Below the pieces are notes generated by a model. The model searched no databases and was not told the origin of the DNA. It was given only the letters and a program-made list of their open reading frames with translations. A program made the translations under genes and the position numbers. Source: an uncultured Acidimicrobiales bacterium (GTDB lineage Bacteria > Actinomycetota > Acidimicrobiia > Acidimicrobiales > AC-14). From it: a DNA stretch of 40,509 nucleotides. Where the stretch lies: positions 1 through 40,509 of the forward strand of contig CADCTB010000208.1 of assembly GCA_902805665.1 (NCBI GenBank). Reading direction: 5' to 3'. Below are positions 4,469-9,468 of the stretch, piece after piece (the first letter of the stretch is position 1; the number at the start of each line of letters is the position of its first letter).

Positions 4469-5518
4469 TCAGAATTGCTCCAGGAACCGGATGTCGTTGG
4501 CGATGAAGTGGCGGATGTCGTCGATGTCGTGGCGCATCATGGCGCAGCGGTCGATCCCGAAGCCGAAGGCGAAGCCGGAGTACTCCTCGGGGTCGATGCC
4601 GGCGGCGGCGAACACGTTGGGGTCCACCATCCCGCAGCCGCCCAGCTCGATCCAGCCCGACTGCGAGCAGACCCGGCAGCCCCGACCCTCGCAGAAGATG
4701 CAGCTGACCTCGAACTCCGCCGAGGGCTCGGTGAAGGGGAAGAACGACGGCCGCAGGCGGGAGTGGATGTTCGGGCCGAAGTACGCGCTGGTGAACGCCT
4801 CGATGGTGCCGGCCAGGTCGCCGAAGGTGATGCCGCGGTCGACGACGAGGCCCTCGATCTGATGGAACACCGGCAGGTGCCGGGCATCGGGGGTGTCCCG
4901 GCGATAACAGCGGCCCGGCGCCACGATGTAGATGGGCGGCGGCTGGCTCTGCATCACCCGGATCTGCACCGGCGACGTGTGGGTCCGGAGCAGGGTGGAC
5001 TCGGCCGCCCCCAGTCGCACGTAGAGGGTGTCCCACATGCTGCGGGCCGGATGGGCGGGCGGCATGTTGAGAGCCTCGAAGTTGTACCAGTCGGTCTCCA
5101 CCTCGGGACCCTCGGCCACCTCGTAGCCCATGGCCACGAACAGGTCCTCGAGCTCGTCGCGGGCCTGGGTCACGAGGTGGCGGTGCCCTCGGGTGGCGTG
5201 CCGTCGCTCGATGACCTCGGTGAGGTCGAGCCGCTCGGCCTCGATCCGGGCCGCACGCTCCCCGGCCGCCAGCTTCTCGGCCCGGTCGGCGACCGCAGCC
5301 TGCACCCGGCTGCGGGCGGCGTTGATCGACCGGCCGGCTTCCTTGCGCTCCTCCACGTCCAGCTGGCCGAGCCGGGAGTTGAGGAGGGCCAGCGCCGAGC
5401 GCTTCCCGCCGACGAGCTCCTGTTCGACGAGGCGAAGCTCGGCCACCGACCGCGCCGCGGCGACGCGCCCCAGTCCGTCGGCCTCGACCGCCGCTACTTC
5501 GTCGGCGAGGGCGGTCAC
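4469..5518 (-). CDS. pheS: Phenylalanine-tRNA ligase alpha subunit PheS
   Basis: PheS is the catalytic subunit that activates phenylalanine. The 349 aa product starts with the family's coiled-coil tRNA-binding arm (about residues 1-90). The class II core then shows motif 1 around MGYEVAEGPEVETD, motif 2 in GRCYRRDTPDARHLPVFHQ, and motif 3 in FGFGIDRCAMMRHDI near the C-terminus. The GTG start overlaps the TGA of the upstream histidine kinase gene by 4 bases (GTGA), which fixes the start and implies coupling. Confidence 0.97.
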   Translation of the reverse strand: MTALADEVAAVEADGLGRVAAARSVAELRLVEQELVGGKRSALALLNSRLGQLDVEERKEAGRSINAARSRVQAAVADRAEKLAAGERAARIEAERLDLTEVIERRHATRGHRHLVTQARDELEDLFVAMGYEVAEGPEVETDWYNFEALNMPPAHPARSMWDTLYVRLGAAESTLLRTHTSPVQIRVMQSQPPPIYIVAPGRCYRRDTPDARHLPVFHQIEGLVVDRGITFGDLAGTIEAFTSAYFGPNIHSRLRPSFFPFTEPSAEFEVSCIFCEGRGCRVCSQSGWIELGGCGMVDPNVFAAAGIDPEEYSGFAFGFGIDRCAMMRHDIDDIRHFIANDIRFLEQF

Positions 5519-6570
5519 CGCAGGGCCTCGGGTGGCTCGACCGGCAGCGTGAACCGAAAGACGGATCCCCGGCCGACCTCCGACTCGACGATCAGCCGGC
5601 CGCCATGGGCTTCGACCAGGCCGCGGCTGATCCAGAGCCCCAGTCCCGAGCCGGTCGGCCGGGTCTCGGCTCGGCGGAAGAACTTGGTGAACACCCGGGG
5701 GAGGTCCGAGTCCGGGATGCCCTCACCCTTGTCGGCCACGGCCACCGTGGCCTGCCCGTTCTCGAAGGCGCCCGTGACCCGCATGCTGCGGGGGTCGGCG
5801 TACTTCGCCGCGTTCTCCACCAGGTTGGTGAGCACCTGCTCGATCTTGTCGGGATCCGCGTAGACCTGCGGGAAGTTTTCGGGGAACCGGACGTCGGCCG
5901 CCAGCCGGGTCTCCATCATCCGGACCTTCTCGAGGACGCCGTTGACCAAAGGCACGAGGTCGATCATCTGCCGGCGCAGGACCAGCCGCCCGCTCTCCAG
6001 CCGGCTGATGTCCAGGAGCTCGGTGACCAGGCGGGTCACGCGGTCGGCGTCGTGGTGGACCTGCTCCAGCATCATCCGCTTCTGGTCCTCGCCCAGGCGG
6101 TCCCACCGGTTGAGCAGCAGGCTGGTGTAGCCCTTGACCGACGTCAGCGGCGATCGCAGTTCGTGGCTCACGGTGGAGATGACCTCGATACCGTCGCCCG
6201 CCACCGGCCGCCTCCGGGCGCCGTCGCGCATCATGAGAACCGCACCCGTGAGCCTTCCATCGCCGTCGCGCTCGTACCGGCCGGTGATCAGCGCCCGCAC
6301 CCGGCGACCCCCCGCGCCGCGCAGCCAGACCTCCTGCTCGGGGATGCGGGACACGGAGCGCAGCCGGGCAGAGGGGTGCCACCCCTGCGCCACCAGCGAA
6401 CGCCCATCGGAGTCCCGGGGCTCGAGGATCTCCGACAGGAGCCGGCCGACAAGCTCGTCGGTGCGGTGGCCGGTGAGCGTGGCCGCAGCCTCATTGGCCG
6501 ACCGGACCCGGCACTCGCCGTCGACCTCGAGCACGGCATCCGGCAGCCGGTCGATCGGCAGCGCACTCAT
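5515..6570 (-). CDS. Cytosolic PAS-domain sensor histidine kinase
   Basis: This 351 aa protein has a PAS-type sensor domain (about residues 5-115), a HisKA dimerisation domain with the phosphoacceptor His near residue 136 in STVSHELRSPLTS, and a HATPase_c domain. The latter shows an N box around residues 249-254 (NLVENA), a G1 box (ADKGEGIP, about 279-286) and a G2 box (GSGLGL, about 307-312). No transmembrane segment or signal peptide is visible, so it should sense an internal cue. The ATG at 6570 overlaps the trmH stop by 4 bases, and its own stop overlaps pheS. No response regulator is adjacent, so it is an orphan kinase embedded in a translation operon. The ligand and partner are unknown. 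Confidence 0.93.
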   Translation of the reverse strand: MSALPIDRLPDAVLEVDGECRVRSANEAAATLTGHRTDELVGRLLSEILEPRDSDGRSLVAQGWHPSARLRSVSRIPEQEVWLRGAGGRRVRALITGRYERDGDGRLTGAVLMMRDGARRRPVAGDGIEVISTVSHELRSPLTSVKGYTSLLLNRWDRLGEDQKRMMLEQVHHDADRVTRLVTELLDISRLESGRLVLRRQMIDLVPLVNGVLEKVRMMETRLAADVRFPENFPQVYADPDKIEQVLTNLVENAAKYADPRSMRVTGAFENGQATVAVADKGEGIPDSDLPRVFTKFFRRAETRPTGSGLGLWISRGLVEAHGGRLIVESEVGRGSVFRFTLPVEPPEALR

Positions 6571-7373
6571 GCAGCTCTTTGGCGGGCGGCCTCGAAGCAA
6601 AGCACGGCCGCCGCCATTCCTACGTTGAGGGACTCGGCCCGACCCTCCATCGGAATCGACACCCATCCGTCGAGCCCGCCGGCCACCGACGCCGGAAGGC
6701 CATGGGCCTCGTTCCCGAGCACCAGCGCGGTCGGAGCGGTGAGGTCGACCTGGTAGTACGGCCGGCCGTCGTCGGCTCGCGTCCCCAGGCGGCGCAGGCC
6801 CCACTCCCCCAGCGTGCCCAGGACCTTCACCGGCTCTCCTCTAGCCACGATCCGTGTGTGGAACAGCGAGCCGGCAGACGCCCGAACACACTTCGGGTTG
6901 TACACGTCGACCGAACCGTCACAGCAGATTATGCCGCCTACTCCGGCCGCCTCCGCGCTGCGCAGCACGGTCCCGAGGTTGCCCGGGTCCCGTACGTCGA
7001 CGCACACCACCACCAGCGACGCCCCGGCGAGCTCGTCGAGGTCCAGGTCGAGGGTGCGGGCGATGGCCAGGACCGGCTGGGGGGTGACCGTGCCCGCCAC
7101 CCGTTCGAGCACTCCGGGGGCCAGGTCGAACACCGGGACGCCGGCCGCGACCGCCCGGGCCACGACAGGAGCGGCGGCCCCGGGCGGCACGAACAGGCAT
7201 TCCAGCGCCACCCCCGAGTCCAGCGCTTCGGCCACCAGCGTCGGTCCCTCGACGACGAACGCCTGCTCCCGGTGCCGCATGGAGGACCGCTCCATCAGCT
7301 GGCGCAGCCGCTTGACCCGGGCCGAGGTGAAGGCGAGCCCCAAGTCCCGCCGCTCGGCCCCGCCCGGTGTCAC
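6567..7373 (-). CDS. TrmH/SpoU-family RNA 2'-O-methyltransferase
   Basis: A 268 aa SPOUT methyltransferase that probably 2'-O-methylates rRNA or tRNA with S-adenosylmethionine. The N-terminal substrate-binding domain contains [17 protein letters not shown]. The C-terminal knotted domain carries all three motifs: [24 protein letters not shown], and [19 protein letters not shown]. The start chosen is the GTG at 7373, which overlaps the rplT TGA by 4 bases (GTGA). Earlier starts in this frame would lie inside rplT. Placement between rplT and pheS is common in Actinobacteria. The exact target nucleotide cannot be read from the sequence. Confidence 0.92.
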
Positions 7374-7732
7374 GATGCCTGGCGGCTCTCCTGTGCCAGC
7401 TTGACCAGGCCGGCGAAGGCCGTGGGGTCGGTGACGGCCAGGTCGGCCAGCACCTTGCGGTCGACCTCCACCCCCGCCTCCCGCAGCCCGGAGATGAAGC
7501 GGCTGTAGCTCATGCCGTGCTGACGGCAGCCGGCGTTGATCCGCTGGATCCACAGCTGGCGGAAGTCGCCCTTGCGCGCCCGCCGGTCGCGGTACGCGTA
7601 GTGGAGGGCGTGCATGACCGCCTCGTTGGCGGACTTGTAGCTCCGGCTGCGGTTGCCGTAGTACCCCTTGGCCTGCTCGAGGACGGCGCGATGGTGCTTG
7701 CGGCCGTGAACCGAACGCTTGACCCTGGCCAT
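7370..7732 (-). CDS. rplT: 50S ribosomal protein L20
   Basis: L20 binds 23S rRNA early in large-subunit assembly. The 120 aa protein opens with [20 protein letters not shown] and includes [15 protein letters not shown], both characteristic. The SD AAGGAG stands 7 bases before the ATG at 7732. A second ATG only 2 bases after the SD is out of frame and too close to be the main start. The gene follows rpmI after a 160-base structured gap. L20 autoregulates this operon in some bacteria; that is known of the family, not shown here. Confidence 0.98.
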
Positions 7733-8087: not shown

Positions 8088-8107
8088 TGCGTTCGTCTCC
8101 TCCCCGC

Positions 8108-8701
8108 TCAGACGGCGGGTGGGGTGGGGGGCTGGGGTTCGGGGGCTGCCTCGGGACTACCGGCCTTGGCCGCCGCCCGCGCCCTGCGGTCGGGAGCCAG
8201 GACCATCACCATGTTCCGCCCGTCGAGCTTCGGCGCTGCCTCCACCTTGGCCAGCGGCAGCTGCTCGGCGATGCGGTCCAGGATGCGCTTCCCCAGTTCA
8301 GGGTGGGCGACCTCCCGGCCTCGGAACATGATCGTGATCTTCACCTTGTGGCCCTCGTCGATGAACTCGCCGACCTTGCGGGTCTTCGTCTCGAAGTCGC
8401 CCCCGCCGATCTTGGGCCGGTACTTCATCTCCTTGATCGAGCTGGTGGCCGCCTTCTTGCGTGACTCCTTGTCGCGCTGTGCGGCCTCGTACTTCCACTT
8501 GCCGTAGTTGAGAATGCGGCACACCGGCGGTTCAGCGAGCGGAGCAACCTCGACCAGATCGAGCTCGAGTTCCCTGGCGATGGACAGGGCCTCCGGCAAG
8601 GTCTTGATCCCCAGCTGGTTGCCGTCCGGATCGACGAGGCGCACCTCACGCGCTCTGATCCGATCGTTGATCCTGAGGTCGGCGCCCTCCGGTGCGGCTA
8701 T
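8108..8701 (-). CDS. infC: Translation initiation factor IF-3, apparent AUA start
   Basis: IF-3 keeps ribosomal subunits apart and checks the start codon-anticodon match. The protein has the N-terminal RINDRIRAREVRLVDPDG segment, PPVCRILNYGKWKYE, and the C-terminal KVKITIMFRGRE and DGRNMVMVLAP motifs. The frame is closed by a TGA 9 bases upstream of 8701, and between that stop and RINDRIR there is no ATG, GTG or TTG. The ATA at 8701-8699 lies 9 bases after a good SD (AGGAG), giving 197 aa. The first in-frame GTG (8644) would delete the conserved N-terminal helix. infC is known in other bacteria to use AUU, AUC or AUA so that IF-3 represses itself. An ATG 2 bases after the SD is out of frame and opens a 20-codon reading frame that stops at 8646. 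Confidence 0.93.
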   Translation of the reverse strand: MAAPEGADLRINDRIRAREVRLVDPDGNQLGIKTLPEALSIARELELDLVEVAPLAEPPVCRILNYGKWKYEAAQRDKESRKKAATSSIKEMKYRPKIGGGDFETKTRKVGEFIDEGHKVKITIMFRGREVAHPELGKRILDRIAEQLPLAKVEAAPKLDGRNMVMVLAPDRRARAAAKAGSPEAAPEPQPPTPPAV

Positions 8702-8721
8702 GCGGCATCACTCCTTGAACG

Positions 8722-8754
8722 AAAAAAAGACGGACGTGCGGAAAGCAACGTCCG
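8722..8754 (-). terminator. Intrinsic terminator/attenuator in the infC leader
   Basis: On the minus strand a perfect 7 bp stem CGGACGT/ACGTCCG (8754-8748 with 8737-8731, loop 10) is followed by TC and seven T residues (8728-8722). It ends only a few bases before the infC SD, so it should cut off the operon unless it is prevented from forming. T-tracts this long are rare in such GC-rich DNA. Confidence 0.78.
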
Positions 8755-8798
8755 CCTCTGGCGGTCGATCGACCCGTCGCACTGGGCTGCCTTGCGAC
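8752..8798 (-). promoter_or_regulatory. Competing hairpins in the infC leader
   Basis: Three structures precede the terminator. CCGCC-TCT-GGCGG (8752-8764, plus strand) overlaps the terminator stem by 3 bases and could act as an antiterminator. GGTCGATCGACC (8763-8774) is a perfect palindrome. GTCGCA (8776-8781) pairs with TGCGAC (8793-8798). The mutually exclusive arrangement is typical of leader attenuation; the controlling ligand (L20, IF-3 or another) is unknown. Confidence 0.5.
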
Positions 8799-8854
8799 AG
8801 TTGGTGGCCGGGTGGGGGCCCGAGAGCCCCGCTTTCCGTATGCAGTTGTGGACC

Positions 8855-8861
8855 TAGGGTA
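8855..8861. promoter_or_regulatory. Candidate back-to-back -10 elements for the DUF1844 gene and infC
   Basis: TAGGGT (8855-8860, plus) fits the actinobacterial TAnnnT -10. It ends 6 bases before the ATG at 8867, predicting a leaderless DUF1844 mRNA. Shifted by one base on the other strand, TACCCT (8861-8856) could be the infC -10, giving a leader of about 150 bases. No good -35 is evident for either, so both are tentative. Confidence 0.4.
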
Positions 8862-8866
8862 CCAGC

Positions 8867-9286
8867 ATGAGTACCTTCTGGACACCCTCCGGCGAACGCC
8901 CGATCCCCAAGGACGAGCCCGGGGCTGCGCCGCAGCCCCCCAGTGGGCCCCCGATGGGCGAGGGCGGCGAAGAGATGGACGAGGAGCTGGCGGCCGAGTT
9001 CATGGCCATGCAGCAGCAGATGCTGCGGACGCCGGCGGCCATCGTCGTGGCCAACCACTGCATCGGCCTGGTCGAGCTGGCCGCCCTCCACCTGGGCCAG
9101 AACCCGCCCAACCTGGCCGACGCCCAGGTGGCCATCGACGCCTTGGCCGGCATGATCGACGCGGTCGGCCCCCGCATGGGCGAGAACGGCCCTCCCCTCC
9201 GCCAGGCCCTCAATCAGATGCGCATGGCCTACATCGAGGCCAAGAACGCCACCGCCCTGGCCGGCGGCGAGACCCCCGAGGACTAG
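8867..9286 (+). CDS. DUF1844 domain protein
   Basis: This 139 aa acidic cytosolic protein has a proline-rich, probably disordered N-terminus (residues 1-35). A compact helical domain follows with the recognisable run TPAAIVVANHCIGLVELAALH, then NPPNLADAQVAIDALAGMID and a closing amphipathic helix. I recognise this as DUF1844, which is frequent near infC in Actinobacteria. Its biochemical role is unknown. No membrane segment is visible. It is divergent from infC and probably leaderless. No SD is apparent before the ATG. Confidence 0.85.
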   Translation: MSTFWTPSGERPIPKDEPGAAPQPPSGPPMGEGGEEMDEELAAEFMAMQQQMLRTPAAIVVANHCIGLVELAALHLGQNPPNLADAQVAIDALAGMIDAVGPRMGENGPPLRQALNQMRMAYIEAKNATALAGGETPED

Positions 9287-9298
9287 GGAAAGGCCCGG

Positions 9299-9468
9299 CC
9301 CCCCCACAAGCCACAGTCGGCGGCCAGCCGCCGACCACATGACCGATGCCCACGGTGAGCGGAGTGGATCGGGCGCCCCCCCACAAGCGCCACAGTCAGC
9401 GGCCAGCCGCCGACCACATGACCGATGCACACGGTGAGCGGAGTGGATCGGACGCCCCCCCACAAGCG
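9299..9468. repeat. Tandem repeat, 77-79 bp units, two copies plus a partial third
   Basis: The word ACAAG recurs at 9306, 9383 and 9462, giving periods of 77 and 79. Each full unit runs from a C-tract through CACAAG, a palindromic core (TCGGCGG-CCAG-CCGCCGA in the first copy), ACATGACCGATGC and GAGCGGAGTGGATCGG. The second copy has a few substitutions that weaken the hairpin. It occupies the space between the DUF1844 stop and the propeller gene (9287-9578), in which no gene is supported. Confidence 0.85.

Follow-up and report, generated by a model that had tools for sequence, protein, structure and literature searches.

Organization of the infC locus

The window, i.e. the whole 40.5-kb stretch of DNA analysed here, is a contig of a metagenome-derived Acidimicrobiia genome whose nearest named relatives are the MAGs nzgw84 and nzgw82 (IF-3 identity 96% and 94%, respectively). 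Its minus strand carries, in this order, infC, rpmI and rplT, followed by the genes for a SpoU-type methyltransferase and a PAS histidine kinase and by pheS. The first three genes code for IF-3 (8108–8701; TIGR00168, 198 bits), L35 (7893–8087; TIGR00001) and L20, the ligand proposed below (7370–7732; TIGR01032 and PF00453), and the spacer between infC and rpmI (8088–8107) has only 20 bases. The sensor kinase gene (PAS-HisKA-HATPase; 5515–6804, minus strand) is located between the methyltransferase gene and pheS, and its 3' end overlaps the start of pheS.

On the other side of infC, a divergent open reading frame of 139 codons (8867–9286, plus strand) has no matches in NCBIfam or Pfam; its 5' end, which encodes WTPSGERP, is kept beside the leader in relatives, as judged by eye. 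The −10 boxes of the two divergent transcription units overlap as TAGGGTA/TACCCTA (8855–8867) and the ATG of the plus-strand frame lies 7 bases past TAGGGT, so that this frame is probably leaderless. Past it, at 9299–9456, a 79-nt sequence occurs twice in tandem, the two copies being 91% identical.

Translation of infC starts at an ATA codon (8701–8699) that is preceded by an in-frame TGA. Rare start codons are also the rule in the relatives (n = 128, scored by script), where we found ATA in 90 cases, ATC in 35 and ATT in three, and in each of the three ATT-called genes an ATA or ATC is also close by. Most relatives have an in-frame stop codon shortly upstream of the infC start, and in 79 of the 128 there is no ATG, GTG or TTG between that stop and the aligned start of IF-3. 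In Escherichia coli, IF-3 controls the initiation of infC translation at an AUU codon, and a rare start codon is a hallmark of such autocontrol. The ATA and ATC starts seen in the window and its relatives appear compatible with control of initiation by IF-3, by analogy with the AUU of E. coli. Genes for Acidimicrobiia-type IF-3 were also found in L226 and L246 (titled Bifidobacterium breve) and in L231 (titled Acidobacteria), with 69%, 72% and 74% identity to the window protein, respectively; the MAGs behind these entries may be mislabelled.

Layout of the infC leader

The interval between infC and the divergent frame is filled by a leader on the minus strand (about 8849–8709) that comprises, from 5' to 3', a −10 box, a short 5' strand, the hairpins P2 and P3, an upstream hairpin, a terminator, a T7 tract, the AAGGAG sequence and the infC ATA. 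The −10 element of the infC promoter, TACCCT (8856–8861), overlaps the TAGGGT (8855–8860, plus strand) of the divergent gene, and infC transcription would start near 8849. The 5' strand, CGGAAAGC (8831–8838), includes an AAG that adjoins P2 (GGGGC..GCCCC, 8815–8830); a single C separates P2 from P3, an irregular hairpin (ACCCG.CCAC ... GTG...CGGGT, 8772–8813) that carries two C-G pairs in succession close to its base.

The terminator has a 7-bp stem, CGGACGT/ACGTCCG (8754–8748/8737–8731), with a 10-nt loop, TGCTTTCCGC, and is followed by TCTTTTTTTC, which contains the T7 tract (8722–8728), ahead of the infC Shine–Dalgarno sequence AAGGAG (8711–8716). A 9-bp form of this stem, P5, includes one G-U pair and spans 8756–8729. 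The earlier note had described the perfect 7-bp stem and the T7 tract, and both are borne out: the 40.5 kb contain one 7-bp Watson–Crick stem followed by at least seven T in 10 (none on the plus strand, one on the minus strand), 20 dinucleotide shuffles contain none, and the T7 tract is the sole run of seven A or T in the window. A program scan for terminators did not list the infC terminator because it accepts loops of at most 8.

When the leader is folded as a single sequence, its stability is no greater than that of shuffled sequences (z = −0.61). The argument for an RNA structure rests on conservation and covariation, not on single-sequence fold stability.

Conservation of the leader in Acidimicrobiia

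A DNA search gave matches in 42 of 60 relatives, partly via the coding region. From 29 loci tried, 25 leaders were obtained (L019, L023, L025 and L028 lacked the anchor), of which 21 formed the alignment A1; L018 was left out for its long insert and L021, L024 and L026 because their terminators were not aligned. RNAalifold applied to A1 found P2, P3 and P5 unprompted. With the structure that also includes P1, the long-range pairing described in the next section, 97.7% of the 605 cells of A1 were paired, compared with 94.1% in shuffles and 36–52% when the partners were slid.

The earlier note had suggested a covariance model built from relatives as a check. Such a model, R1, was made from P2, P3 and P5, with P1 not included, and matched 123 of the 248 genomes of the order, 143 of 395 genomes of the class (E up to 0.01) and 21 of 396 genomes of the phylum, 19 of them within the class, in every case with a single match per genome. 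There was no R1 match in the other 125 genomes of the order, and in at least one leader, that of L252, the element was not visible by eye. The window, which is among the R1 training sequences, matches at 8709–8851 (minus strand; 122.5 bits, E = 7e-29 in its own genome). The search was repeated for 130 R1 matches, among them the full set of 123 from the order: 128 precede infC on the same strand and only two have no infC downstream, L092 (a weak phylum-level match with no IF-3 gene nearby) and L124 (where the contig end cuts the locus). Conversely, 77 of 80 loci picked by similarity of the IF-3 protein had an upstream R1 match at E up to 0.1; the leader is also present in a record of Acidiferrimicrobium sp. 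IK (L207), with an R1 score of 89 bits. In 121 of the 130 leaders, a TANNNT sequence lies between −30 and +6 relative to the leader start, the fraction in shuffled sequences being 0.23.

In the larger alignment A2, which has 99 distinct rows fitted to R1, a selection that favours features of the model itself, 96.5% of 2576 cells were paired and double changes were seen at 19 of 29 pairs; none of 500 shuffles scored as high and slid partners gave 33–54%. A2 has some genomes in common with another alignment, A5, and the two are not independent. The infC leader is a conserved RNA of Acidimicrobiia, and covariation supports P1, P2, P3 and P5. An infC leader that is structured and ends in an intrinsic terminator, as had been proposed from the window alone, gains support from its conserved position, the −10 box and covariation; attenuation as such is a matter of interpretation and is discussed below.

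At least seven of the nine P5 pairs are kept in 83 of 100 leaders. The T tracts that follow these 83 intact hairpins vary, with at least five T among the next nine bases in 46 leaders, four in 21 and three or fewer in 16. Almost every row of three sets retains both the AAG beside P2 and the two C-G pairs in P3 (98 of 100, 29 of 30 and 76 of 77).

P1, a long-range helix of the 5' strand with the terminator loop

The loop of the terminator contains GCTTTCCG (8739–8746), which is complementary to 8838–8831, so that the 5' strand GGAAAGC can pair with GCTTTCC in the loop to form a long-range helix, P1. The earlier note described the leader correctly, but gave no strand and missed this complementarity, its strongest feature. 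Since P1 is outside R1, the P1 counts on A2 were not fitted to that model: in the 99 distinct rows, 94.2% of the P1 cells are paired and one pair appears as A-U in 36, as G-C in 32 and as G-U in eight rows. Of the 83 rows whose P5 is intact, 67 retain six or seven of the seven P1 pairs; their P1 helices come in 29 sequence versions, among them GACAAGC/GCTTGTC, GAGAAGC/GCTTCTC and TGAAAGC/GCTTTCA. Without any column alignment, a run of at least six pairs was found in 70 of 130 leaders, as opposed to 41–48 when the loops were swapped among genomes and 10–22 when the letters were shuffled.

At two A-U pairs of P1 no other standard pair ever occurs (78 and 73 rows, with four and five rows unpaired, respectively), although the neighbouring pair covaries freely. 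Such invariance is as expected if these As serve a second role. In several divergent leaders without an aligned P5, the P1 partner is still present downstream, as judged by eye; in L078, also by eye, GCGAAGTC and GACTTCGC can be taken as the P1 partners if one base is read across the P2 boundary. Outside the class, P1-like pairing is weak, being significant against letter shuffles in only six of 24 leaders.

Two leaders from other families of the class, L083 and L084, have a short, strong terminator and a 5' GAAAGA that, by eye, is complementary to the U tract (UCUUUC) and not to the loop. In L274, an infC leader from another class (1310–1390 and downstream), GCCAAGAAGGGA and TCCCTTCTTGGC, in the 5' strand and the terminator loop, are perfectly complementary over 12–13 bases; this complementarity also overlaps P2.

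The hairpin upstream of the terminator, CCGCC-AGA-GGCGG (8752–8764), does share three bases with the 7-bp stem, as the earlier note said (CGG, 8754–8752), and shares 8756–8752 with the 9-bp form. As for its proposed part as a competing fold, the hairpin occurs in some relatives, all five pairs are present in only 12 of 21 leaders and no compensatory changes were seen by eye, and we rejected it as a sole antiterminator. P1 appears to be the better candidate for the alternative pairing.

Relationship to the Rfam L20_leader family

The leader of the infC-rpmI-rplT operon of Bacillus subtilis is described by the Rfam model RF00558, which has a curated cut-off of 58.7 bits. A comparative study of Bacilli leaders was reportedly carried out by Deiorio-Haggar in 2013. 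The remark that the window sequence is no obvious relative of L20-controlled leaders agrees with direct searches, as RF00558 had no match over the cut-off in the window, and none at E up to 10 in 8600–8900 or in seven loci of the class, including the window's own leader (L046). In substance, however, the remark did not stand, because leaders of intermediate character from other Actinomycetota link the window to RF00558. Of 246 Actinomycetota genomes, 50 matched RF00558 at E up to 0.01, one of them above the cut-off (65.6 bits) and none in the order of the window; the best match was at most 400 nt upstream of infC in 24 of the 26 matched genomes with infC coordinates. The infC leaders of other Actinomycetota classes have the same order of parts, and several of them match RF00558. 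A control run with this model also matched Thermotoga maritima, so that the L20_leader family may extend beyond Firmicutes even by Rfam.

We built two models from such leaders. R2 was made from 20 leaders outside the class (of 22 cores, L289 and L279 were dropped for long inserts) and, when run on 8600–8950 (351 bases), placed its best match at 8772–8835 of the minus strand, i.e. exactly at P2-P3, with 14.0 bits, the next match having 2.0. Over 45 loci, 44 of them from Acidimicrobiia, the leader was the best R2 site in 40, as counted by eye, and leaders occupied each of the first 31 rows. A run over 90 loci with the filters at their default yielded only 12 matches (E up to 5), eight of them at Acidimicrobiia leaders. 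R3 was made from only the 17 leaders with RF00558 support (L261, which lacks it, was excluded). The 13 best R3 hits over 21 loci, seven of them from Acidimicrobiia, were all infC leaders, and in the window R3 again picked 8772–8835, with 6.9 bits (E = 0.013 for 351 nt). The window scores of R2 and R3 would not be significant at whole-genome scale.

The covariation of P2-C-P3 and the placement of R2 and R3 agree in identifying a core of the RF00558 type, with two hairpins, a one-nucleotide joint and a C-ACC..GGU junction, in which P2 (aligned by both R2 and R3) corresponds to the first hairpin of RF00558 and P3 to the second. The element also has the same position, before the infC-rpmI-rplT operon, and, in the window, an intrinsic terminator after the core. 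Homology of the P2-P3 core to the RF00558 leaders, traced through intermediate sequences, is well supported: each line of sequence evidence is weak, but their sum assigns the RNA to the L20_leader lineage.

Further resemblances to RF00558 are the ACC..GGU base of the second hairpin and the AAG beside the first. There are also differences. The Acidimicrobiia leaders belong to Actinomycetota, are not matched by the Rfam model, have a GC-rich P2 instead of AGAAGC/GCUUCU, and have a longer terminator loop (mostly 8–12 nt versus the consensus UUUA) that can pair with the 5' strand; the Rfam consensus is without the P1 pseudoknot. Judged by sequence, the element shares descent and layout with L20_leader without reaching its curated score and has P1 as an additional long-range helix; L20 is the putative ligand of the leader.

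Other elements were noticed in the infC loci of other classes. T-box leaders score above the Rfam cut-off in L268 (371–595) and L262 (375–628, minus strand), sub-cut-off matches to the cspA thermoregulator model precede infC in L267 and L274, and a cold-shock-protein-like frame was seen by eye ahead of infC in L261, L267 and L271.

Comparison with known L20-dependent systems

In the B. subtilis leader, the L20 site is the H1/H2 junction, L20 binding leads to formation and stabilization of the terminator H4, and this RNA is narrowly distributed to Firmicutes (PMC6097659). In another report, L20 leaders are given for Gammaproteobacteria and Firmicutes, with Deltaproteobacteria added, and L20 sites are said to have in common an AA dimer plus two G-C pairs in succession (PMC7247131). 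As far as the description goes, the Acidimicrobiia leader would resemble the Deltaproteobacteria r-leader in both of these features; the scaffold of the latter is a different one according to its authors (PMC7247131). With the E. coli rpmI-rplT operator, a long-range pseudoknot plus a hairpin, it would share the proposed ligand L20 and has in common a long-range pseudoknot; in E. coli, however, infC escapes regulation by L20, which targets the translation of rpmI and rplT (PMC10931766), whereas here the element precedes infC and ends in a terminator. An operator of the E. coli type, translational and leaving infC out, does not fit this position before infC, and the spacer between infC and rpmI has only 20 bases. 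No description of L20 leaders from Actinomycetota turned up in our literature search, which had most subscription journals outside its reach. In Mycobacterium tuberculosis, a tabulated survey lists for infC a 5' UTR of 326 nt with a UTR/CDS ratio of 2.6 in exponential and 4.9 in stationary phase (PMC3207917, Table 8); this actinobacterial leader exceeds its coding region in transcript signal, as would be expected with an attenuator.

A proposed model for attenuation by L20

We consider it probable that this GC-rich RNA belongs, as a far-diverged member, to the L20 r-leader lineage and acts as a transcription attenuator of infC-rpmI-rplT; in the proposal of the earlier note, its control would extend to the methyltransferase, kinase and pheST genes. 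The homology is read from the sequence; that L20 binds, that attenuation takes place and what P1 does are our inference. Free L20, when in excess, would bind at the P2/P3 junction, to the AA beside P2 and the two C-G pairs of P3; the choice of the AAG and these pairs as putative contact nucleotides is our own mapping, made by analogy. Bound L20 would hold the 5' strand so that P1 cannot form, P5 would then fold and RNA polymerase would halt at the T7 tract just ahead of the Shine–Dalgarno sequence. With L20 taken up by rRNA, the 5' strand would pair with the nascent terminator loop, and P1, once formed, would cause P5 to fail or be delayed, so that the operon would be transcribed. The AUA start of infC would provide a separate, IF-3-sensitive step at translation. 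P1 may, on the other hand, coexist with P5 as a kissing-type pseudoknot, given a loop of 8–12 bases, and stabilize the stop, the reverse of the role proposed here.

An attenuator of this type with common descent from L20 leaders might have been re-targeted to IF-3, another operon product or another signal, as could be argued from infC being the first gene, from its AUA or AUC start in nearly all relatives and from the complete replacement of the outer P2 sequence relative to RF00558. We regard this as unlikely, since control by IF-3 at the start codon requires no structured leader and the AA dimer and two successive G-C pairs reported for L20 sites (PMC7247131) appear conserved. That the leader is constitutive and has no ligand, its terminator-like hairpin serving to fix the extent of read-through or the structure shielding the mRNA 5' end, seems quite improbable: the poor T tracts of some relatives and a single-sequence fold no more stable than shuffles would suit such a role, but near-invariant positions adjoin freely covarying ones, the long-range P1 is present and the family of origin is a regulated one.

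The least plausible reading, to which we give almost no weight, is a ribosome-mediated attenuator with a short leader frame. A GTG in GTGCGACGGGTC does start a frame of 24 codons in the window, but no Shine–Dalgarno sequence lies upstream of it, the frame stops after five codons in some relatives (GTGCGTCGGGTCGAATGA in L037) and the segment is accounted for by P3; a leader peptide was therefore rejected on sequence. We also looked for mimicry of the L20 site of 23S rRNA in L041 and L043, where a likeness was not established: GGTCGA is present in both rRNA and leader, and mimicry is not claimed since a 6-base match is expected by chance.

Rather than being peculiar to Firmicutes, L20 leaders could be ancient regulators whose range takes in Actinomycetota, with the Acidimicrobiia leader as a competition switch in which the As read by L20 are the same as those that pair with the terminator loop, so that protein and terminator would compete for one strand. 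In the AU-rich relatives L281, L287 and L288, this strand might form pairs with the U tract instead, and P1 would then be the moving part of the whole family. We put forward this broader scheme tentatively and consider it less likely than not.

Implications

If L20-dependent attenuation by this leader is correct, Actinomycetota would gain a feedback switch that is operated by a ribosomal protein and acts on L20, L35 and IF-3, and an r-leader believed to be narrowly distributed would merely have diverged past detection by its model. P1 would offer a concrete route from protein binding to terminator control, with one strand and two partners. The finding also suggests the over-abundant infC 5' UTR of M. 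tuberculosis as a candidate attenuator.
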